The notes under the pieces: generated by a model
What the model was told of the DNA's origin: nothing
Seen by the model: only the letters and a program-made list of their open reading frames with translations
Databases searched by the model: none
DNA from: Natronosalvus vescus
Lineage (GTDB): Archaea > Halobacteriota > Halobacteria > Halobacteriales > Natrialbaceae
Assembly: GCF_023973145.1 (NCBI RefSeq)
Contig: NZ_CP099546.1
Coordinates: forward strand, 3,720,001-3,784,000
Reading direction: 5' to 3'
Length of the DNA: 64,000 bases
Program-made: the position numbers and the translations under genes
Part shown: in pieces, positions 2 through 36,746 of the stretch
Position numbering within the stretch: position 1 is the stretch's first letter
Layout: every line of letters starts with the position of its first letter

Positions 2-2440
2 ACGGACGGCGACACAGGTGCGGCGTTCGAGTTCGACGAGACCGAAGCGAATGGCAGCGGTGGCCGAACCGACGACGCGATCACACAGTTGTTCGACCGT
101 CTCGGGTCGCGAGACGAACGGGTCGACGCGTTACGGACGGAACTCGAGACGCTGTCCGACGACGTGGATGCCGTGGCCGAAGAGGTCGCCACCGTCGCCG
201 ATGCGAGCGCACCGATCGAGGACGTCGATGCACTCGCGGCGACCGTCGAATCGATTACCGACGACCTCACAGACCTTGGAGACGACCTGACCACCGTCAC
301 CGATACCCTCGAGACGCACGCCGATCGGATCGAGACGCGTGCGGCCGCCGAGACAGTCGCGGCTCTCGAGGAGTCACGTGACACCCTGCAAGCATCGGTC
401 TCGGCACTCGAGTCGACCCTCGAGACGCTTTCGGAACGTGTCGACGACAATAGCGTCGATATCGAGTCCGTCGAGGAGTCGCTCACGGAGACGGCTAGCG
501 ACGTCGAGACCCTCAAAGCAGATCGGGATGCTCTCGAGGGGAGTATCGACGCCCTCGAGGCCGATCTCGGTGACCTCGATACGACGGTCTCGAGGATTGA
601 CGAGACTGTTACCGGTATCGACACGACTGTCGACGAAATCGACGACGACGTCCGTGCCCTCGAAGCCACCGCGGCAACCGAGGCAGCGCTCGAGACAGCG
701 CTCGGGGCAGTCAACGAGGATGTCGAGGAGGTGTCGACGGATGTCGATGCGGTCACCTCGGAAGTCGAAGTGGTCACATCGAATGTCGAAGCCGTAACGA
801 CGGCAGTGGACGACGTCACAGCGACCGTTGACGACGTTTCAGGTACGCTCGAGGTGACGAGCGAGGAATTCGACGAGCGTATGACGAACATTTCGGCCCG
901 GCTCGAGGAACAACGAACCGATCTCGAGACGCGACTTGCCGACGTCGAAACCCATCTCGATGATCGTGAGGAGGCGATAACGGATCGGGTTGACACCGTG
1001 GAGACCGACCTCGAGACGGTTCGATCCGAACTGCAAGCGACCATCCACGACCTGGATGCACTCGAGGAGACCGTTGTCGAGGTTTCGACACTCGAGGAGG
1101 CCGTCGACGGCGTTTCAGCACAACTGCAACGCTCACGGGAGGAACGCGAAACCGCGATTTCCACGCTCGAGGCGGATGTCACGGCCATCGAGGAGCACCA
1201 GGACTCGATCACCGACCGACTGGACGAACAGGGTACGACCCAGAAAGAACAGGGTGAGCGCCTCGAGGTGACCGCCGCAGCCCTCGAGAAACGAGGGGAT
1301 GTTCTCGAGGAACAGGGCGAAACCCTCGACGTGCACGGCGAAACCCTCGACGAACAGGGCCAGACGCTCGAGGAACTGGAAGAAACGCTCGACGATCAGG
1401 GCGAGACGACAACAGCACTCGAAACAACCCTCGCCGAACAATTCGAATCGACCGAGACGCTACGAACGACGATCGAGGCGGTGCAATCCGATCTCGAGTC
1501 GATCCGAGCCGACCTCGAACAGGTGTCCGACGTCGACGAGTCCGAGACGGTTCAAACCGATCTGTTTTCGGTACGAGAGACGGTCGACCAGGCGTCTGGC
1601 ACCGACGAACCCGCACCGAATCCTGACGAGTACGCGACCCGCACAGCACTCGACGCCCTCGAAACGACCGTACTGGAACTCGAGTCGACCCTCGAGACGG
1701 TCGAATCCGACCTGGCAACCCTCGAGACGCCCAACGACGACCCATCGGAAGACGCCGTGCTCGAGGCGACGATAACTGAGGAACTCGCCACGGTGGAGCG
1801 ACGACTCGAGGAGACACGGGACGAACTCCAGTCGGTTCGGGATGAAACCAAAACGGCAGTGACAACGATCGAAACGAAGGTAACAGACGCGACCGACGAC
1901 CTCGAGCACATCGACGAACTGGCGACGAACGCGGTCGACAGAACGGACACGCTCGAAGCCGAGGTCGAGTCGCTGACTGAAACGGTCGATTCGCTCGAGC
2001 ACGAGCCAGCGCTATCCGCTGACGAACAGGCGCTGACGGCTGTCGAATCAACACTCGACGAACTCGACGCGGAGACGGCTACTCTCGAAACGAAACTCGC
2101 CGAACTCGAGGACGACGTAACCCAGCTCGACGTCGAGGGAACCGGCGACACCGACACGTCACTCGAGTCGGTTCGCGAGACGCTCTCGACACTCGAGTCC
2201 CGAGTGCAGTCGCTGGAACACGCCGAGAGCGGAACCACAGACGAATCCGAATCGGCAACGACGACACCAGCAGAGGGGGATCACTCGAGTTCCTTCGTCC
2301 CCGTTGCAGCGATCGGTGGTGGAAGCGCCGGGGTCGTCGCCGGCGCGACCGTTGTGTTGACGGAGGCGACCGTCACGGGTTCGATCGCGATCGCACTTGG
2401 TGTCGTTCTGCTCGTACTGGGCTTCGTCACGGCCGAGTGA
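2..2440 (+). CDS. giant coiled-coil protein with C-terminal membrane anchor (5' end outside window)
   Basis: The frame is open from the first bases, so the start lies upstream; 812 residues are visible. Nearly the whole visible part is heptad-like, Leu/Val/Ile alternating with Glu/Asp/Thr, with almost no Pro or Cys, which predicts one very long coiled coil. Six perfect-spacing heptads of the type EEQGETL occur at 1286-1411. The last ~50 residues hold two closely spaced hydrophobic segments (about 2302-2437) ending VLGFVTAE, so the rod is probably tethered to the membrane by its C-terminus. No catalytic motif and no HAMP or receptor signalling domain is visible. It may be a structural or scaffold protein of the cell envelope or division apparatus, but no function can be assigned. 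The acs gene follows on the same strand with its own promoter. Confidence 0.85.
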   Translation, partial: TDGDTGAAFEFDETEANGSGGRTDDAITQLFDRLGSRDERVDALRTELETLSDDVDAVAEEVATVADASAPIEDVDALAATVESITDDLTDLGDDLTTVTDTLETHADRIETRAAAETVAALEESRDTLQASVSALESTLETLSERVDDNSVDIESVEESLTETASDVETLKADRDALEGSIDALEADLGDLDTTVSRIDETVTGIDTTVDEIDDDVRALEATAATEAALETALGAVNEDVEEVSTDVDAVTSEVEVVTSNVEAVTTAVDDVTATVDDVSGTLEVTSEEFDERMTNISARLEEQRTDLETRLADVETHLDDREEAITDRVDTVETDLETVRSELQATIHDLDALEETVVEVSTLEEAVDGVSAQLQRSREERETAISTLEADVTAIEEHQDSITDRLDEQGTTQKEQGERLEVTAAALEKRGDVLEEQGETLDVHGETLDEQGQTLEELEETLDDQGETTTALETTLAEQFESTETLRTTIEAVQSDLESIRADLEQVSDVDESETVQTDLFSVRETVDQASGTDEPAPNPDEYATRTALDALETTVLELESTLETVESDLATLETPNDDPSEDAVLEATITEELATVERRLEETRDELQSVRDETKTAVTTIETKVTDATDDLEHIDELATNAVDRTDTLEAEVESLTETVDSLEHEPALSADEQALTAVESTLDELDAETATLETKLAELEDDVTQLDVEGTGDTDTSLESVRETLSTLESRVQSLEHAESGTTDESESATTTPAEGDHSSSFVPVAAIGGGSAGVVAGATVVLTEATVTGSIAIALGVVLLVLGFVTAE
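1286..1411 (+). repeat. six tandem 21-bp units encoding heptads
   Basis: Consecutive in-frame 7-residue units EKRGDVL, EEQGETL, DVHGETL, DEQGQTL, EELEETL, DDQGETT. The unit length matches the coiled-coil heptad, so it probably arose by in-frame duplication. Confidence 0.75.
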
Positions 2441-2566
2441 GGGCGTTTCGAAACGTAAACGGATCGCCATCTCCACCTCGTTCGACGTTCGTGTCTCCGA
2501 AACCGTGGCACGATACGATGCTGAGGCGAAAGCTTATCCCCTTCATGACCATTGTTCCCGCTAACC

Positions 2567-4570
2567 ATGCCAGACGAGTCATCAGAGCGTGAATCCGGGG
2601 ATGACACCGAATCGGCACTCGAGGCGCGGCTAGCTGCGGGCGAAACGTACGAGCCGCCGGCATCGTTCGTCGAACAGGCGAACGTGAGCGACCCCGGCAT
2701 CTACGACGATTTCGAGGAGAACTGGCCCGATTGCTGGGAGCAGGCGGCCGACCTGGTGAGCTGGTTCGACGAGTACGACACGGTGCTCGAGGACGAGGAC
2801 GCGCCGTTCTATCGGTGGTTCACCGGTGGGACGCTCAACGCCTCGTACAACTGCCTCGACCGCCACGTCGAAGACGGCGCGAAAAACCGTGCGGCGATCA
2901 AGTGGGAGGGCGAACTCGGCGAGACGCGCACTTACACCTACGGCGACCTGTTGAACGAGGTCGAAGCGTTCGCCGCCGCCCTCCAGGAGCTTGGCGTCGA
3001 GGAAGACGACGTCGTCACGCTGTACATGCCGATGATTCCCGAGTTGCCAATTGCGATGCTCGCGTGTGCGCGCATCGGGGCGCCCCACTCGGTCGTCTTC
3101 GCCGGTTTCTCCGCGGACGCGCTCGCGACGCGGATGAACGCGGCCGAGAGCGAGTACCTCGTCACCTGCGACGGCTACTACCGCCGCGGTGATCCGCTGA
3201 ACCACAAGGAAAAAGCCGACAAGGGGCTTCGCGGGGTCGACCACGACGTCGAAACGGTCGTCGTCGATCGACTCGGTGATGAACTCGAACACTTCCTCGG
3301 CGCAAACGCACACGACTACGACGAACTGGTGAGCGACCACGCGGGCGCCTCCGTCGAGCCGGTCGAGCGAGACGCCGAGGACATGCTGTTCCTGATGTAC
3401 ACCTCGGGGACGACGGGCCAGCCCAAAGGGGTCAAACACACCACGGGTGGCTACCTCTCGTATGCGGCGTGGACGTCTCACGCCGTCCTGGACGTGAAAC
3501 CCGAGGACACCTACTGGTGTGCGGCCGACATCGGCTGGATCACCGGCCACTCCTACATCGTCTACGGGCCGCTCACGCTGGGCACGACGACGATGATGTA
3601 CGAGGGAACCCCCGACTACCCCGACAAAGACCGACTGTGGGAACTTATCGAGACGAACACGGTCGACATCTTCTACACCGCGCCAACGGCGATTCGCGCG
3701 TTCATGAAGTGGGGCACCGGCTACCCTGACGCCCACGACCTCTCGAGTCTCCGCCTGCTCGGAACCGTGGGCGAACCGATCAACCCCAGAGCGTGGACGT
3801 GGTACTACGAACACATCGGCGGTGAGTCCTGCCCGGTCGTCGACACCTGGTGGCAGACCGAAACCGGCGGGATGATGATCACCACCCTGCCAGGGATCGG
3901 CGAGATGAAACCCGGATCGGCCGGCCCGCCCCTTCCGGGTATCGACGCGAAGATCGTCGACGCCGCTGGCGAGGAGGTCGGTGCGGGGAACGCTGGCTAC
4001 CTCACGGTGCAGAACCCGTGGCCGGGGATGTTGCGCACGCTGTACAACAACGACGACCGCTTCCTGAACGAGTACTGGCAGGAGTACTCCGATCCGGACG
4101 CCGACGAGTGGGTCTACTTCCCCGAGGACGGCGCGAAGATCGACGAGGACGGCTCCATCACCGTGCTCGGGCGGGTCGACGACGTGATCAACGTCTCGGG
4201 CCACCGACTGGGAACGATGGAGATCGAGTCCGCCATCGTCGGTGTTGAGGGCGTCGCCGAGGCCGCCGTCGTCGGCGGTGACCACGAGGTGAAAGGCCAG
4301 GCCGTCTACGCCTACGTCATCCTCGAGGACGGCCAGGAGGCAACGGACGGAATGCACGACCGCATCGTCGAGGGCGTCGAGGACAGCATCGGGCCGATCG
4401 CCCGCCCCGAGGAGGTGCTGTTCACGCCCGAACTGCCGAAAACGCGCTCGGGCAAGATCATGCGTCGCTTGCTCGAGGACATCGCCTCGGGCGAGGAGTT
4501 GGGTGACACCTCCACCCTGCGAAATCCGGAGATCGTCGAAGAGATTGCCGATCAAGTCGGCGAGAACTAA
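2567..4570 (+). CDS. acs: acetyl-CoA synthetase (acetate-CoA ligase, AMP-forming)
   Basis: Converts acetate, ATP and CoA to acetyl-CoA, AMP and PPi in the cytoplasm. The 667-residue length is typical of Acs. Visible motifs: the ATP-binding loop YTSGTTGQPKGVKH near residue 277, WWQTETGG near 428, the hinge region GRVDDVINVSGHR near 533, and PKTRSGKIMRR near 623 with the Lys that is catalytic and subject to acetylation in this family. The start was chosen at ATG 2567 (MPDESSERE) rather than the in-frame TTG at 2552, because a TATA-like stretch (AAGCTTAT, about 2530) lies at leaderless distance. It stands alone; a hairpin element begins 2 nt after the stop. Confidence 0.95.
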   Translation: MPDESSERESGDDTESALEARLAAGETYEPPASFVEQANVSDPGIYDDFEENWPDCWEQAADLVSWFDEYDTVLEDEDAPFYRWFTGGTLNASYNCLDRHVEDGAKNRAAIKWEGELGETRTYTYGDLLNEVEAFAAALQELGVEEDDVVTLYMPMIPELPIAMLACARIGAPHSVVFAGFSADALATRMNAAESEYLVTCDGYYRRGDPLNHKEKADKGLRGVDHDVETVVVDRLGDELEHFLGANAHDYDELVSDHAGASVEPVERDAEDMLFLMYTSGTTGQPKGVKHTTGGYLSYAAWTSHAVLDVKPEDTYWCAADIGWITGHSYIVYGPLTLGTTTMMYEGTPDYPDKDRLWELIETNTVDIFYTAPTAIRAFMKWGTGYPDAHDLSSLRLLGTVGEPINPRAWTWYYEHIGGESCPVVDTWWQTETGGMMITTLPGIGEMKPGSAGPPLPGIDAKIVDAAGEEVGAGNAGYLTVQNPWPGMLRTLYNNDDRFLNEYWQEYSDPDADEWVYFPEDGAKIDEDGSITVLGRVDDVINVSGHRLGTMEIESAIVGVEGVAEAAVVGGDHEVKGQAVYAYVILEDGQEATDGMHDRIVEGVEDSIGPIARPEEVLFTPELPKTRSGKIMRRLLEDIASGEELGDTSTLRNPEIVEEIADQVGEN

Positions 4571-4572
4571 TA

Positions 4573-4644
4573 GGGAACGTTGTACGTCCTACCGATCGTC
4601 CGCCACAAAGTAGACGATCGGCGGTACATCGTCACAACATCCCC
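4573..4644. repeat. dispersed 72-bp inverted-repeat element, copy 1
   Basis: Imperfect palindrome starting GGGAACGTTGTAC and ending TCACAACATCCCC. The inner arms CCGATCGTC (4592-4600) and GACGATCGG (4613-4621) are perfectly complementary around a 12-nt loop. It starts 2 nt after the acs stop codon. The arms match elements at 46915-46987 and 48445-48517. Confidence 0.7.
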
Positions 4645-4722
4645 TATGAGGATTTGGTTCTTCGATCGGATGGCCGTCCGACGCATCGACTCTCGACGAC
4701 CCTGGTGTTCGTAGTAAACAGG

Positions 4723-4734
4723 TTTATTATTTAT
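4723..4734 (+). promoter_or_regulatory. TATA box of the first MTH865-family gene
   Basis: TTTATTATTTAT is centred 28 nt before the ATG at 4756, the spacing of a leaderless haloarchaeal promoter. Confidence 0.6.
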
Positions 4735-4755
4735 CCGCTATAATATCCTGCTGGT

Positions 4756-5007
4756 ATGGCAGACGAAGCTGAACTCCGCGAGCAGTTTACCGAGGCGTTC
4801 GAAGGCGCAGACTACCCCATCTCGAGTCCGATGGATCTCGTTCCAGCCCTGCCGAACGGGCCGGGGACGAAATTCGAGTCGGGGGACTTCTCGATGACGG
4901 CGATGGAACTGAACACGAAGCTGTCCGGTGGTGAGTTCCCGTACGAGAGCGTCGACGCGTTCGTCGACGACGTCATCGACGAGCTAAAAGACCAGGATCA
5001 TATCTGA
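4756..5007 (+). CDS. MTH865 family small protein, paralogue 1
   Basis: An 83-residue acidic protein beginning MADEAELREQFTEAFEGADY, matching the archaeal MTH865 family (small helical protein of unknown function; a structure is known from Methanothermobacter). The conserved segment VPALPNGPGTKFESG follows the N-terminal helix. A second copy starts at 49700 with the same N-terminus and overall length. The gene is monocistronic, with a strong TATA box and a hairpin terminator candidate behind it. The biochemical role is unknown. Confidence 0.85.
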   Translation: MADEAELREQFTEAFEGADYPISSPMDLVPALPNGPGTKFESGDFSMTAMELNTKLSGGEFPYESVDAFVDDVIDELKDQDHI

Positions 5008-5015
5008 ACACCCGG

Positions 5016-5037
5016 CGAGACGACGGTTCTCGTCTCG
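5016..5037 (+). terminator. hairpin terminator candidate
   Basis: CGAGACGA (5016-5023), a 6-nt loop and TCGTCTCG (5030-5037) form a perfect 8-bp stem 9 nt after the stop of the MTH865 gene; a short T run (GTTTTC) follows at about 5049. Confidence 0.5.
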
Positions 5038-5311
5038 GATTGTGAACCGTTTTCGGTGCCGTTTCTCGGAGTACACGTCAGCCCCCGTGTGACCGATGGG
5101 TATCACGCTGATCGCCGCCGACAATCGGTTGGGTCACATCGTTCGCCGCACAGGTTTTCGGATGTTGCAACGAAGCGTCGTCTGCGCCACAACAGACGCC
5201 GCTCACAGTGCGAGAGTACGATTCCGACTGTGCGATCGAGACGCCACAGCAGTCGAGACCGTGGTCTCGGGGTGACGAGTGTCTGTGTCCGAGGGTGAGT
5301 GTGTGGACTCG

Positions 5312-5464
5312 CTATCGCTGCAGATGGAAGCGAACGATATCGTCGTTCCCACAGGCAGGACAGTCCGTCGTCGGCGAATCGACGTCAGTTCCACACTGTC
5401 GACACTCGTAGATCGTGGCTGTTCCGTGATCACGAAACAGCAGTGACTTAACGGTCTTAATCAT
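5312..5464 (-). CDS. zinc-ribbon miniprotein
   Basis: A 50-residue protein starting MIKTVKSLLF, with two zinc knuckles, CRQCG and CPACG, spaced as in rubrerythrin-like or zinc-ribbon miniproteins common in haloarchaea. The open frame continues upstream to 5623, but that part is Pro/Ser/Arg-rich, unlike coding DNA here, so ATG at 5464 was chosen. Function unknown; such small zinc proteins often act as regulators or binding modules. The 300 bases between the MTH865 gene and this gene hold no other convincing gene. Confidence 0.6.
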   Translation of the reverse strand: MIKTVKSLLFRDHGTATIYECRQCGTDVDSPTTDCPACGNDDIVRFHLQR

Positions 5465-5800
5465 CCCATCCCCACCACTTCGGTTGTAACCAACGACCAT
5501 AAGTCCTGTTGACTGTTCACATAGACAGAGATAGTCGTTCTCGTCTGTTGTCGGCCGGATACTGGGCCGACTCGACGGGGGCTCGATCGAGGCGGGAAGG
5601 CGCCGTACACCCGGCTGTGTCACGGTGCTACAGGGGTACGGGTGAAGCGGCCTAGTGACTTATTTATTTGTAGATGCCATAACTAGTGGACACATACAGG
5701 CGGAGACACGCCCGACAGCCTGTTCGAACGGAGGGTGAACGGAAGTGGGACGCTGTTGGAGTATACATCCACGTTCACGCCCCGGCTTGATATCGCTGGT
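5465..5800. other. intergenic region with AT-rich promoter-like core
   Basis: No convincing coding frame. A TATA-like stretch TTATTTATTTG lies at about 5659-5669, some 265 nt before the next start codon at 5935. If it drives that gene, the mRNA has a long 5' leader containing the 28-bp repeat. Confidence 0.4.
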
Positions 5801-5937: not shown

Positions 5938-7959
5938 TCATCGCCCCCTGGACGCGAGAAACCGCTCGTACTCGTTATGCAGCCCGCTCGAGCGACGGCA
6001 TCGATCGAGCAACTCACCGAACACCTCACCGAGTACCAAGTTCGAGTCGCGAGTGCTAGGGTCGAAACCCGTCGGATTCTCGGCGACTACGAGGACGTCG
6101 TGGCGCTCTGTCACTCGAGTGAGCCCTCGTGGGTTCGATCCTGCCTCAAGACGCTCGCAGGGGAGTTCCCGGACAGACGGATTCCGACCATCGTCGTGCC
6201 ACCGAGTGGGAGTGGAAGTGAGCGGTTGGCAACCATCACGGTGCGAGCGGGCGGCGACGACTACGTCTCACCGACGGCTCTCGAGGAGTTACCAGAACGG
6301 ATAGACTCGTTATGGGCAGGAGTTGGCCAGACCGAACCGAGAGAGACAAAACCGGCCACAGACACCTTGGTCGATCTCCTGTCGACGACGTTCCCGGACG
6401 AAGTGTTCGTCCTCGGGGCAGATGGTACGTACCTGGATACGGAAGTGCGTCCGGATTCCGCCGATCTGTACACCGTCAGGCCCGACGAATTCGTCGGTCG
6501 GACGTTGTGGGATGCGTTTTCCGACCGGGAAGCCGATCGATTTCACGACCACATACAGCACGTTCTCGAGAGCAGAGAGATTGCACACGTGGAGTACGAC
6601 GTCGAGACGACCGAAGGCACCCGTCAGTATCTGGGTCGCGTCGTCCCCATCGGTTCCTCGACATACGATCAGGAGGCCGTGTTGTGGCTCGCACGGGATA
6701 CAACCGAACTCGAGAGCCGGGAAGCGGCACTCCAGCAACGACGAGAGCAACTCGAGTTGCTCAACCGGGTTAATGCGGTCGTCAGGCGGGTAATCAAGAC
6801 CCTCGTGGAAGCGCCCACCCAGTCGGCAGTCGAGGAGGAAGCCTGCGAGCTACTCGTGGCCTCCGATCTGTACTGTGGGTCGTGGATTTCCCGCCCCACC
6901 GGCGATGGCAGTGTCGTGTACCAGACCGGCTGTGGTGACGTGTCGTCATACCTCGAAGCGATCAAAGCGATCGATTACGACGCCGACGACGACCGGCCGA
7001 TTATCCATGCACTCCAGGAGAATACCATCCACTCGAGCACCGAGTTGCAGTCGATGCCGGAGATGCCGCCCGACCTCGCGGAAGCTGCTCGCGAACACGA
7101 TATCAAATCAGCGATCGCGGTGCCGCTGTCACACGGCGATAGCGTCTACGGCGTGTTGACGGTGCTGGCTCGTCGGGAGGACGCATTCGGCTCCCGAGAA
7201 GAGGAGGCGTTTCGATTGCTCGGGGAAACGATCGGATTCGCGATCAATGCGATCAAGAACCGACGGCTGTTGTTCGCCGACGCCGTGACGGTACTCGAGT
7301 TCCGCATCGAGGGAGGGAACTCCTTTTCGTTCGATCTCTCGACGAAGTACGACTGTCAGTGTGCCCTCGAGTGGTCGGGGACGACGGCGAACGGACGCAC
7401 CTACCAGTACGTCACGATCGATGGCGTCGACGGTCAGACGGTGTACGAGGAGGCGACAGCGCACGAGACCGTCGAGGAATGTCGGCTCGTCCACGACGGC
7501 GAGAACGAGGCAACGATCGAGATCCGACTCGCGGAATCCGCGGTTCGAACGCTCAAAGGGTACGGTGCAACGATTCGTGACGTCACCGTCGATGACGGCG
7601 TCGGACACATCACGGTCGAATTCTCACGCGAAACTGACACACGGGCGATCGTCGAAGCGCTACAGCGCGTCTACGAGGAGGCCGAACTCGTCGCGAAACG
7701 GGAGGTCGACCGACCAGTGACGACGGCGAGCGAACGGCGCAACCGGATCGCAGATCGATTGACCGAACGACAGCTCACCGCCCTTCGGTTGGCGTACTAC
7801 GGCGGATATTTCGACTGGCCACGCGGCAGTACCGGTGAAGACATCGCCGAATCGATGGGCATCTCGCCACCCACGATGCACCAGCACCTGCGGCGTGGGC
7901 TCGAGGAGATTCTGGGGGACTTCTTCGAGGTCGGGCCAGAACCAACGTCCACGAAGTGA
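5935..7959 (+). CDS. PAS/GAF/Bat-type HTH-10 transcriptional regulator
   Basis: A 674-residue cytoplasmic sensor-regulator of the bacterio-opsin activator type. Residues ~1-125 look like a receiver-type fold, ~130-265 a PAS domain (EVFVLGADGTYLDTE onwards), ~290-440 a GAF domain (AIAVPLSHGDSVYGVLTV), then the Bat-associated domain, ending with the HTH-10 segment LTERQLTALRLAYYGGYFDW near 610. Family members sense light, oxygen or redox and act on nearby promoters. The receiver-like part lacks an obvious Asp phosphoacceptor pair (LVLVMQ instead), so phosphorylation is doubtful. The ligand and targets are unknown. It converges on hutH with a 24-nt gap. The upstream 28-bp repeat could be its operator or leader. 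Confidence 0.85.
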   Translation: MSSPPGREKPLVLVMQPARATASIEQLTEHLTEYQVRVASARVETRRILGDYEDVVALCHSSEPSWVRSCLKTLAGEFPDRRIPTIVVPPSGSGSERLATITVRAGGDDYVSPTALEELPERIDSLWAGVGQTEPRETKPATDTLVDLLSTTFPDEVFVLGADGTYLDTEVRPDSADLYTVRPDEFVGRTLWDAFSDREADRFHDHIQHVLESREIAHVEYDVETTEGTRQYLGRVVPIGSSTYDQEAVLWLARDTTELESREAALQQRREQLELLNRVNAVVRRVIKTLVEAPTQSAVEEEACELLVASDLYCGSWISRPTGDGSVVYQTGCGDVSSYLEAIKAIDYDADDDRPIIHALQENTIHSSTELQSMPEMPPDLAEAAREHDIKSAIAVPLSHGDSVYGVLTVLARREDAFGSREEEAFRLLGETIGFAINAIKNRRLLFADAVTVLEFRIEGGNSFSFDLSTKYDCQCALEWSGTTANGRTYQYVTIDGVDGQTVYEEATAHETVEECRLVHDGENEATIEIRLAESAVRTLKGYGATIRDVTVDDGVGHITVEFSRETDTRAIVEALQRVYEEAELVAKREVDRPVTTASERRNRIADRLTERQLTALRLAYYGGYFDWPRGSTGEDIAESMGISPPTMHQHLRRGLEEILGDFFEVGPEPTSTK

Positions 7960-28483: not shown

Positions 28484-29563
28484 TCAACACTCGAGCAGTA
28501 ACGACTCACACAGCGCATCCGCTCCGTCCTCCTCCCTGATTCGGCGCTGGCGTTCAGCACCGCTCTCGCGCTCGTACACCTGACGGATGCCGTCGATATC
28601 GAGACGTTCACACTCCCGATCGACGACCTCGCCGAGGGTGACCGTTCCCTCGAGGTCGCGGTCGATGAAGCTGGCGTCGTGGCCGTGGCGGATCGCCCGC
28701 CACTTGTTTTCGTCGAGGAGTTCCCGACGGTGGTGGTGTGTACGGCCACCATCCTCGTATTCCTCGGCGAGCGTCGTCACGAGCGTGTGGGTGTACTCGA
28801 CGAACGCCATCACGACGTCCGGATCGGCCTGTCCGTCCGGTGTTCGAACCTCGACCGTTCCGTGGCCGGTGTGCGGGCGGACGTCGTACCAGAGTTCGCC
28901 ACGGTCGCGGATCGAGTCGGTCTCGAGCATCCGGCGTTCGAACGCGTCGAACGCTTCAAAATCCTCGAAATAGGTCGGCATTCCCGTGTTCGGGAGTCCC
29001 TCGAAAATCTTGGCTCGAGCGGAGTGAAGACCGGTGTCGAACCCGTCCCAGTACGGCGAGTTCGCCGAAAGCGCGAGCATGATCGGGACGAACCAGCGTA
29101 GTTCGTTCGCGATCCAGACCGCCTTGTCGGCGTCGTCGACACCCACGTGGACGTGGACGCCTGCGGTCGTATTTCGATGCTGGGTGTACTGGATCCGGTC
29201 GAGCTGTGACCGGTATCGCGACTTTTCGGCGTGCTCGAGTTCGCGCCAGCGTGCGAGCGGGTGTAAGCCGGCCGCTGCGACCTGATAGCCGTGGGCCGCT
29301 GCGTGGTCGATCAACGCCCGCCTGACCTCCAGCAGCGACGATTCGGCGTTCGAGGGCCGCTCGATCAACGGCGTTTGCGTCTCGATGACGCACTTGAACA
29401 GTTCGTGATCCAGCCGATCCTCGAGTATCGCAGGCGGCTCGTGATCGTACACCAGCGTATCCGTTCCGCTCGTGGGACGGCCGCGCTCGTCGACGACGAA
29501 GTATTCCTCCTCGATTCCCAGCGACCCCATTCGCGTGAACGATTCCGACGACCCGCGTTCCAT
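28484..29563 (-). CDS. gshA: glutamate-cysteine ligase (GCS2 type)
   Basis: Makes gamma-glutamylcysteine, the main thiol of haloarchaea, from glutamate, cysteine and ATP. The 359-residue protein shows the GCS2 motifs [40 protein letters not shown] and [14 protein letters not shown]. Start ATG 29563 fits a leaderless TATA (minus-strand GGTATTTAGC at 29587-29596). It is divergent from the NAD kinase fusion gene, whose product supplies NADPH used to keep thiols reduced; the promoters share a 106-bp gap. Confidence 0.92.
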
Positions 29564-29586: not shown

Positions 29587-29642
29587 GCTAAATACCGTTT
29601 GGAGTCGGCAGCGACCTCCGAATGGTCGCGGTGACTTTATAC
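29587..29642. promoter_or_regulatory. divergent TATA boxes of gshA and the NAD kinase fusion gene
   Basis: GCTAAATACC (29587-29596, minus-strand TATA for gshA) and TTTATAC (29636-29642, plus-strand TATA for the gene at 29670) each lie 24-34 nt before their start codons. Confidence 0.55.
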
Positions 29643-29669
29643 GAGGGGGGACAAGACAGGGCAGGAACC

Positions 29670-31460
29670 ATGCACGGCCGGAGATTGGCGACGACGGAGG
29701 CACTGATCGCCGTCGTCAGCCCGGAGAGTCAGGGGGTACTCGATACACTCGAGTCGATCGCCGCCGACCGCGACATCGGTCTCGAGGCGGTCGACGTCGG
29801 TACGGACATCGATCGAGTCTACGACGAGGACACGGCAACGCTCGGGGTAACCATCGGCGGTGACGGAACGTTCTTCGAAGGCGTCAAAACGTTCGCTCCG
29901 CGTGGGATTCCCGTACTGGGGGTAAACACGGGCACCCTCTCGTTTCTGGCACGCGTCGAACCGGAGGATCTCGATGCCGCCCTCGAGGAGACGCTGAGCG
30001 GTCGGGCGACCGTCGACAACCGCCAGCAGGTGGCCGTCAAGACCGACGGGCTCGAGGCGACGGGGCTCAACGAGGTCATGGTACAACACGTCCCACCGCA
30101 GAGCCCCATCGATCGGAAGGTTACCCGTCTGGACGTGTTTGCGAACGACGAGTACGTCGGGGAGTTCGAGGGGACGGGACTTGCAGTATCGACGCCGACG
30201 GGATCCACCGGGATCTCCCTCTCGGCCAACGGACCGATCCATTACCCGGTCAACAACCAGTCGATCCAGCTCGTGCCCCTCCACACCCACCAGATCGGCG
30301 TTCGCCCGGTCGTCATGGCACCGTCGACCGAGATTCGGGTCTACCCCGTCGGCCCAGCAATCTTACAGGTCGACGGTGGCCGTATGTACACGACCGTCGC
30401 CGAGGACGACGAAATCCTGATCACGGGGGCCGAAACCCCCGCACACATCGTACGAACGAGCTACGACGACCACTTCTTCACGGCGATAACGAAAAAACTC
30501 GGCTGGGACGTTCGATCCGAAGATGGTCGTCCGCTCCGACCCGACGCTGATCGCGTCCGCCGGACGCGGTTCGCTCGGCGCGGTCGGGACGCTGGATCGC
30601 TTTCAACCAGTGCCGACGTCGCTCACCTCCTCGACGAGGAGTCGTTCCCGCCGGAACACCCGATCAGACGGGCGCTCGAGGTCGCGATCGAGGCTGCCCA
30701 GAGCGCGGGCGAGCCGTTACGGGAGCTTCACGGTCGGGTGGAGTCGGTCACTTACAAAACGGATAAGACCGACATCGTGACCGAGGCCGATCGGCAGGCC
30801 GATCGCATCATCACGACCACCATCGCGACGGAGTTTCCAGATCACGGCATTTTCTCGGAGGAAAGCGGCCACCGCGAGCGATCGGGGCCGTACACCTGGG
30901 TGATCGATCCGCTCGATGGTACCGGCAACTTCGCCCACGGCAATCCGAACTACGCGATTTCGATCGCGCTCGCGATCGACGATACGCCGGTCATCGGCGT
31001 CGTGTACGTTCCCGAGACCGACGAACTGTTCGCCGCGGTCGACGGTGGCGAGGCCTGGCAAAACGGTAACCCCTTGCGGACGACAAGCCGCGAGCGCCTC
31101 GACGAGAGCATGCTCCTCTCGGGGTACGACCCCGACGGATCGTTTCTCGCGAACTTTTACCAGCAGACGCGTGGTGTCCGGCGACTCGGCTCGGCAGCGC
31201 TGAACCTCTGCTATCTCGCGAGCGGGAGCGCCGACGCCGTCTGGGAGTACGACACCTACCCGTGGGACGTCGCCGCCGGTCTCGTCATCGCCCGCGCGGC
31301 CGGTTCCCGAGTGACCGACGCGCGGGGGGCCCCGTTCGCGTTCGACCTCGAGACGGATACTCGAAAGGAACTGCTCGGCTCGAACGGTCCGCTCCACCCG
31401 TCGCTCCTGTCCCACCTCGATTCGGGCGTCGTCAATTCCGCCAGCCGCCAGGACGGGTAG
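29670..31460 (+). CDS. NAD kinase - inositol monophosphatase-family fusion protein
   Basis: A 596-residue two-domain enzyme. Residues ~1-275 are an ATP-NAD kinase: GGDGTFFEGVKTF (63 onwards), VNTGTLSFLARV, TPTGSTGISLSANGPI and the late HQIGVRPVVMAP. Residues ~320-585 are an IMPase-fold phosphatase: KTDIVTEADRQADR, FSEESGH, DPLDGTGNFAHGNPNYAIS (from 413) and YDTYPWDVAAGLVIARAAG, so all Mg-binding residues are present. The junction (RPLRPDADRVRRTRF) is Arg-rich. In Methanocaldococcus the known NADP phosphatase/NAD kinase fusion has the opposite domain order. The protein may thus both make and dephosphorylate NADP, or the phosphatase may act on fructose bisphosphate or inositol phosphate. Confidence 0.9.
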   Translation: MHGRRLATTEALIAVVSPESQGVLDTLESIAADRDIGLEAVDVGTDIDRVYDEDTATLGVTIGGDGTFFEGVKTFAPRGIPVLGVNTGTLSFLARVEPEDLDAALEETLSGRATVDNRQQVAVKTDGLEATGLNEVMVQHVPPQSPIDRKVTRLDVFANDEYVGEFEGTGLAVSTPTGSTGISLSANGPIHYPVNNQSIQLVPLHTHQIGVRPVVMAPSTEIRVYPVGPAILQVDGGRMYTTVAEDDEILITGAETPAHIVRTSYDDHFFTAITKKLGWDVRSEDGRPLRPDADRVRRTRFARRGRDAGSLSTSADVAHLLDEESFPPEHPIRRALEVAIEAAQSAGEPLRELHGRVESVTYKTDKTDIVTEADRQADRIITTTIATEFPDHGIFSEESGHRERSGPYTWVIDPLDGTGNFAHGNPNYAISIALAIDDTPVIGVVYVPETDELFAAVDGGEAWQNGNPLRTTSRERLDESMLLSGYDPDGSFLANFYQQTRGVRRLGSAALNLCYLASGSADAVWEYDTYPWDVAAGLVIARAAGSRVTDARGAPFAFDLETDTRKELLGSNGPLHPSLLSHLDSGVVNSASRQDG

Positions 31461-35909: not shown

Positions 35910-36746
35910 TTACTGTCCGTTACCAGCGTCGATCGCCTGCGTCGCCGCCAGCACCTCGTCGTGGACGACGCCGTTGGATGCGACCAGGCCAGTCGAATCG
36001 TAGCGCCACGGGTTGCCGTCGATGTCCGTAACAGTCCCGCCGGCTTCGCGGATCAGGTGAACCCCGGCGACCGAATCCCACGGGTTCGCCTGGACGTTAG
36101 TTATCACGCCGTCGAGGCCGCCCGCGGCGACCATCGAGAGGACGGCCTGGGCGCAGCCGAACCGGCGCATGTCGCCGAAACGCTGGACGATCTCTCGAGT
36201 AGCCGCGGCGTACTGCTCCCGTTCGTCGAAATCCCACCAGATCGTCGGACACACGGTGCAGGTCTGGGGATCGTCTCGATCGCTTACCGTGATCGAGTCA
36301 CCGTTTCGGGTGACGCCGTCCGGCCCGGCCAGGTACGTGTCCCCGAGCGCCGGCAAGACGACCGCCGAGCCGACCGGTTCGCCGTCGATGACGGCGGCGA
36401 CCGCCGTTGCGAAGACGCGGAGTTCGCGGACGTAGTTGTTCGTCCCGTCGATCGGATCGATGATCCAGGCGGGCCCCTCCGGAGGAACGGTCTTTCGCTC
36501 GTCGTCCTCCTCCCCGACGATCGGATCGTCCGGGTACGTCTCGTGAATCACGTCGATAACCGCTCGCTGTGCGTCACGATCGGCCTGGGTTACGACGTCC
36601 GTCTTGCCACCCTTCACCTCTACCGGGATGTTCCGTCGGAACGACTCGTGGGCGACCGCCGCTCCGGCCTCGGCCGCTTGAGCGGCGACCGTTGCCCGAT
36701 CACGTGCCCTTGCCGTGTCGTCGACGCCTCCGTTGCTCTCGCTCAT
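35910..36746 (-). CDS. inositol monophosphatase family protein
   Basis: A 278-residue Mg-dependent phosphatase: KTDVVTQADRDAQR, VGEEDDE, DPIDGTNNYVRELRVFA and NPWDSVAGVHLIREAGG give the full set of metal ligands. In archaea the family acts on inositol phosphate or fructose-1,6-bisphosphate. It is distinct from the IMPase half of the fusion at 29670, being shorter and differing in every loop. Start ATG 36746 (MSESNGG). Next to ligA downstream end, same strand, 89-nt gap. Confidence 0.9.
   Translation of the reverse strand: MSESNGGVDDTARARDRATVAAQAAEAGAAVAHESFRRNIPVEVKGGKTDVVTQADRDAQRAVIDVIHETYPDDPIVGEEDDERKTVPPEGPAWIIDPIDGTNNYVRELRVFATAVAAVIDGEPVGSAVVLPALGDTYLAGPDGVTRNGDSITVSDRDDPQTCTVCPTIWWDFDEREQYAAATREIVQRFGDMRRFGCAQAVLSMVAAGGLDGVITNVQANPWDSVAGVHLIREAGGTVTDIDGNPWRYDSTGLVASNGVVHDEVLAATQAIDAGNGQ

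Follow-up and report, generated by a model that had tools for sequence, protein, structure and literature searches.

The closest described systems are the MJ0917/MMP1489 proteins of the Methanococcales, which combine an NAD kinase and an IMPase-type phosphatase in a single chain and for which NAD kinase activity together with NADPase and FBPase activity is reported (PMC8553519). IMPase-family enzymes with NADPase activity, MJ0917 included, are described in both PMC8553519 and PMC4518329; the latter presents dedicated NADP phosphatases as scarcely known, and its authors state that, to their knowledge, no enzyme acting solely as NADPase has been isolated. We analyzed a stretch of 64,000 nucleotides from the haloarchaeon Natronosalvus vescus (hereafter the window; contig NZ_CP099546.1, positions 3,720,001 to 3,784,000) that encodes a protein in which these two enzyme families are likewise united, but in the opposite domain order. 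Residues 74-292 of its kinase half match positions 352-566 of the 570 in the NCBIfam model NF010678, named 'bifunctional NADP phosphatase/NAD kinase'; since the kinase is the C-terminal part of the model and the N-terminal part of the fusion, the order is reversed relative to the methanogen enzyme, as the initial annotation of this DNA had claimed. The score against this model is 172 bits with a cut-off of 493, so by the model's own rule the fusion is not a member. A fusion of this kind is thus known from MJ0917, and its reversed order is a new form; our literature search, which covered titles and abstract openings in open-licence PMC text, returned no description of a kinase-first fusion, and our sequence searches found it in Halobacteria alone, in contrast to the Methanococcales distribution of MJ0917/MMP1489.

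The whole fusion gene occupies positions 29670..31460 on the plus strand (stop codon included) and encodes 596 aa. The open frame is 29622-31460(+), corresponding to 612 aa; the start codon ATG at 29670 was chosen by the N-terminus MxGRRLATT, which is conserved family-wide and confirms the gene boundaries proposed initially. Residue numbers of the window protein P0001, including those of Pfam domains and motifs, are counted from 29622. The open frame is an NAD kinase domain, a disordered linker, and an IMPase domain in single succession, and both domains of the fused protein exceed the curated Pfam cut-offs: NAD_kinase PF01513 at residues 70-128 (1e-12, 48.9 bits, cut-off 25.5) and NAD_kinase_C PF20143 at residues 150-278 (1.6e-14, 54.1 bits, cut-off 23.7) on the kinase side, and Inositol_P PF00459 at residues 352-574 (8.9e-64, 216 bits, cut-off 27) on the phosphatase side. 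The AlphaFold2 model of the window protein has a mean pLDDT of 79.4, with the two domains modelled well and separated by a variable linker of low confidence (30504..30656, plus strand; model residues 279-329, pLDDT mostly below 55), the length of which ranges from 30 to 90 aa among the 45 relatives with both borders found. Comparison of the window protein with its relative L007 gave dN/dS of about 0.10 for the kinase and about 0.08 for the phosphatase, values that are approximate only because dS exceeds 1, and the linker is saturated. Where we looked at it, the RefSeq name of the fusion is 'inositol monophosphatase family protein', which refers to the phosphatase family alone, and the kinase half is therefore overlooked.

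The best explanation, in which our confidence as a whole is about even, is that the fusion arose separately from MJ0917 and is a bifunctional NADP-homeostasis enzyme, found in haloarchaea alone in these searches, that combines an NAD(H) kinase with a tethered NADP(H) phosphatase. The N-terminal domain would convert NAD(H) into NADP(H) by means of the Asp of the GGDGT motif, either ATP or polyphosphate serving as the phosphoryl donor. A flexible linker would tether a metal-dependent phosphatase of the IMPase fold, the most likely task of which is to strip the 2'-phosphate from NADP(H), the protein overall working like MJ0917. We infer both of these reactions, and above all the substrate of the phosphatase: synthesis of NADP by the kinase half is likely, and its removal by the phosphatase half is plausible because of the MJ0917 precedent. 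The domain architecture, the grouping into a single clade, the preserved catalytic residues, the distribution, and the decay of the phosphatase in a sister clade are direct findings. If the two families were joined independently and the other way round, this convergence would be evidence that it is useful for one chain to both make and remove NADP.

The IMPase-type phosphatase domain (30675..31343, plus strand; residues 352-574) carries the motif KTDKTDIVTEAD with its Lys/Asp/Thr/Asp residues (30756..30791), the metal-site pair Glu413-Glu414 (30858..30863), the metal and catalytic motif DPLDGT (30906..30923), and the C-terminal metal ligand motif WD formed by Trp548-Asp549 (31263..31268). The fusion thus combines a PF00459 profile score above the cut-off with the Glu/Asp/Asp/Asp metal ligands and the DPxDGT signature of that family; the expected metal and catalytic residues (E413, D429, D432, T434, and D549) are all present in the window protein and also in most relatives. 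These positions we take to be equivalent to the known IMPase residues. Foldseek matched the phosphatase half to SuhB/IMPase structures, and in the VIA comparison Pseudomonas SuhB (8wip_A) aligned with it over 257 residues (Z 33.4, rmsd 2.4). Its fold and catalytic residues are therefore those of SuhB/IMPase proteins of PF00459, from which it differs in being tethered to a kinase. The resemblance to bacterial SuhB, and not to an NADP phosphatase specifically, counts against the best explanation, and it leads to a tentative alternative that we consider possible but improbable: a genuine NAD kinase joined to an IMPase with a physiological substrate other than NADP, such as inositol-1-phosphate, fructose-1,6-bisphosphate, histidinol phosphate or another compound, the fusion either coupling two reactions or merely co-expressing them. 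This is consistent with the best solved relatives being IMPase/SuhB enzymes and with the top NCBIfam models for this half, HisN (160 bits, cut-off 275) and FBPase/IMPase (147 bits, cut-off 264), though all of these fall below cut-off. A link to NADP is favoured by the nature of the fusion partner, an NAD kinase, by the precedent of MJ0917, and by the decay of the phosphatase in a paralogue paired with thioredoxin reductase. Outside the fusion, the same genome encodes a separate standalone IMPase-family protein (35910..36746, minus strand; PF00459 1.6e-52) with 32% identity to the fusion.

The NAD kinase domain (29670..30521, plus strand; P0001 residues 17-300) was identified by PF01513 and PF20143, by phmmer matches to solved NAD kinases, and by Foldseek matches that include the NAD kinases 7mh7 and 7qvs; support for its fold comes from Foldseek (TM-score about 0.65 to target) and sequence, the VIA table having contained phosphatase chains alone. 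Together with the Pfam profiles above cut-off, the GGDGT motif at 79-83 places the fusion in the NAD kinase family. The GGDGT motif G79-T83 (29856..29870), which forms the catalytic and phosphoryl-donor loop, retains its Asp in 66 of the 67 fusion kinase domains in the alignment. In the NE motif (30069..30074; Asn150 and Glu151 in the window protein), N150 is found in all 67 domains, and position 151 is D in 54 and E in 13 of them; this motif presumably represents the adenosine side of the acceptor site. The GGDGT motif predicts ATP or polyphosphate as the phosphoryl donor (PMC8553519).

The initial annotation stated that the catalytic motifs are retained in both domains; this is correct for the catalytic residues, but the nicotinamide-binding subsite of the kinase is an exception. 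In the nicotinamide-subsite motif TGLAVSTPTGSTGI (30174..30215, plus strand), Asp is replaced by Thr and Ala-Tyr by Gly-Ile in comparison with standalone NAD kinases; among 74 fusions, 1 has the Asp of the pattern 'DGxxxxTPTGSTAY' and none has its Tyr (0/74), whereas 63 of the 64 standalone kinases have both (59 scored by pattern and 4 by eye), the remaining one, L146, being unread. L093 and three COG3199-like proteins were left out of this count. PMC7660225 describes an inhibitor complex of Listeria NADK1 in which the base occupying the nicotinamide subsite is in contact with Asp150 and Tyr163; our reading of the motif suggests that these two residues correspond to the altered columns of the fusion. 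An Asp and Tyr of this type are absent from the fusion, but they are not a formal Pfam requirement for PF01513/PF20143. Two further substitutions that had been considered in the kinase, R136 to Q and D252 to G, were rejected as one-column alignment offsets, since the Arg does align in the phmmer comparison and the Asp is invariant in the alignment A1. The window genome also encodes a canonical NAD kinase, nadK1 (P0002), which shares the GGDGT, Asn-Glu, and TPTGST motifs with the fusion kinase; however, it is standalone, retains the Asp and Ala-Tyr, is only 30% identical to the fusion kinase, and belongs to a separate clade. We take P0002 to be of the HVO_2363 class.

With two residues of its nicotinamide subsite gone, the kinase may differ from standalone enzymes in acceptor preference. 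Taken further, the main acceptor might no longer be NAD: having remodelled its nicotinamide subsite but retained the adenosine site, the kinase would phosphorylate another adenylated compound, which the phosphatase would reset. We consider this unlikely. It would fit the family-wide replacement of the Asp and Tyr (residue roles as given in PMC7660225) and the retention of nadK1 or nadK3 in 41 of the 44 listed genomes with the fusion, but three genomes, from three genera, that lack any canonical NAD kinase carry the fusion, and there it also lacks both the Asp and the Tyr.

These three genomes emerge from the NAD kinase complement of 292 Halobacteria genomes. The nadK1 gene is present in 285 of them, and the fusion occurs in six of the seven genomes without it. 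As four of these seven hold another canonical kinase of about 260 aa with the motif GDGVLVATPFGSTGYY, which we label nadK3, the simple count of nadK1 loss was rejected and three genomes count. The nadK3 gene occurs in exactly 4 of the 292 genomes (G207, G116, G198, and G267; loci L173, L175, L174, and L170, respectively), all without nadK1, and it has apparently displaced the housekeeping nadK1 there. In G043, G014, and G179, each from a different genus, only one or more fusions were found beside a protein with PF20143 and PF01513 that we take to be COG3199-like, other PF01513 hits being below cut-off. The fusion is thus present in each of the three genomes that have no canonical NAD kinase, with a chance probability of 0.0032, or 0.0006 when the window organism's own family, with its high frequency of the fusion, is treated apart; the genomes are only three, and G179 is a 50-contig draft. 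Conversely, each fusion-free genome in the 292-genome sample has nadK1 or nadK3. Since the fusions of G043, G014, and G179 share the loss of the nicotinamide-subsite Asp and Tyr, we argue that this loss does not abolish NAD kinase activity, and the fusion probably still makes NADP despite the subsite changes, in line with the NADP role first suggested for the kinase half; the COG3199-like protein could also be a source of NADP in these genomes. The fusion is not a simple substitute for the canonical enzyme, given that nadK1 or nadK3 is kept in 41 of the 44 listed fusion genomes, and in N. vescus it is additional, because the genome contains nadK1 and two weaker relatives beside it. Under the best explanation of a bifunctional NADP enzyme, a single accessory gene would spread, partly on plasmids, usually residing beside nadK1 and being able to replace it. 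A further protein with an NAD-kinase-C domain in the window genome, L093 (C1:1326526-1326861, minus strand), has ALGDSAL in place of GGDG and, read in a wrong frame, is the outlier among the 59 standalone rows of the alignment; judging by its motif, it is probably not an active NAD kinase, and it may correspond to haloarchaeal nadK2.

The survey of fused and separate genes across Halobacteria that had been suggested for this locus revealed a patchy distribution. By hand count, at least 44 of the 292 genomes of the class sample contain the fusion among matches listed down to E of about 1e-28, so that weaker cases may be missed; the corresponding count for the family of the window organism is at least 36 of 74 genomes among the matches listed, and even within its genus the presence is patchy (3 of 7 genomes). 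Outside its order, no full-length match was found at E<=1e-40 in a phylum sample of 294 genomes. Among the named related loci from genome contigs, 50 of 51 are fusions, the remaining one being L057, and all are haloarchaeal by title. Ten plasmid records, all haloarchaeal, cover at least 80% of the query, and Natronorubrum bangense has one copy of the fusion on a plasmid and another on the chromosome. We conclude that the fusion is a spreading accessory gene, some copies of which reside on plasmids. Because complete isolate genomes, plasmids, and chromosomes share the same single frame, the fusion is not an assembly error, the outcome that was named at the outset as refuting it. An assembly or annotation artefact joining two genes is accordingly of negligible probability: the same frame recurs in at least 44 of 292 genomes, and the only case pointing the other way is the metagenome relative L052 with its frame break. 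On that contig, the forward fusion is split between two frames near position 6558, which may reflect a sequencing error or a broken gene.

In the kinase tree, the domains from 36 fusions group in a single clade with SH-aLRT support of 100; they adjoin three long-branched bacterial sequences, with a support of only 87. The phosphatase domains likewise form one clade (SH-aLRT 99), with the very long-branched standalone L057 placed inside it. These trees are most simply read as a single origin of both halves. L057 (5986-6801) is a standalone phosphatase from Haloprofundus that keeps the family signature WEYDTYPWDVAAG and has DGR for DGT; it is possibly a relic that lost the kinase half.

A sister clade comprising L047, L048, L049, L053, and L171 has lost the KTDKTDIVTEAD residues as well as the second Glu of SEE, but not GGDGT. 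In the first four of these loci, a thioredoxin-reductase-like gene lies directly downstream of the fusion in the same orientation, its product scoring 320.7 bits against TRX_reduct, just below the cut-off of 343, and a CBS-domain gene lies upstream of the fusion; the fusion and the thioredoxin reductase apparently constitute an operon. The same co-directional arrangement of CBS-domain gene, fusion with decayed phosphatase, and thioredoxin-reductase-like gene is also seen in L052 (minus strand, about 2400-5700). The association of the decayed-phosphatase clade with thioredoxin reductase suggests a role in NADPH metabolism, and under the bifunctional reading the protein of this clade would have become a pure NADP supplier. 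In the reverse case, L051 (6001-7692) has GDEGM in place of GGDGT with its phosphatase residues intact, a natural kinase-impaired variant. The decay of the phosphatase in the sister clade and of the kinase motif in L051 suggest that the halves are separable functions; these loci, together with the genomes that seem to have no NAD kinase besides the fusion, provide natural separations of function. A more speculative and rather doubtful reading would regard the fusion as a transferable 'set-point' module of haloarchaea that couples a kinase to its own phosphatase and is able to displace the essential housekeeping NAD kinase. The kinase, its nicotinamide pocket rebuilt, would have an altered choice between NAD, NADH or another adenylated acceptor; in the lineage linked with thioredoxin reductase, decay of the phosphatase would have shifted the module from cycling to one-way supply.

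The gene upstream of the fusion in the window is gshA for glutamate--cysteine ligase (28484..29563, minus strand; NF010045 691.7 bits, cut-off 395). The initial annotation had linked the fusion to thiol metabolism through this neighbour; the divergent arrangement is indeed present, but a wider link is not borne out, as a gshA homologue adjoins the fusion in only 4 of 80 loci (L007, L058, L059, and L060), of which L059 is apparently the L007 genome again. The gshA link is therefore weak and local, and a conserved operon including gshA is rejected; the thioredoxin-reductase-like neighbour of the sister clade supports the thiol/NADPH theme better. No constant neighbour was found across the fusion loci, which counts against the best explanation. 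A CBS-domain gene immediately precedes the fusion in 14 of the 50 named fusion loci, and other neighbours include genes for a CBS protein with cobalamin adenosyltransferase, glycine decarboxylase, and amidohydrolases. On several plasmids, genes for amidohydrolases, a luciferase-like oxidoreductase, and threonine synthase are located near the fusion. For instance, on a plasmid of Natrinema halophilum (L087, 5928-18671) the fusion lies amid genes for amidohydrolases, a deaminase, a luciferase-like oxidoreductase, and threonine synthase, with a phosphonate-type ABC transporter just beyond this gene set, and three of these gene types (luciferase-like, amidohydrolase, and threonine synthase) are also present in L029, L031, L032, L039, and L040.
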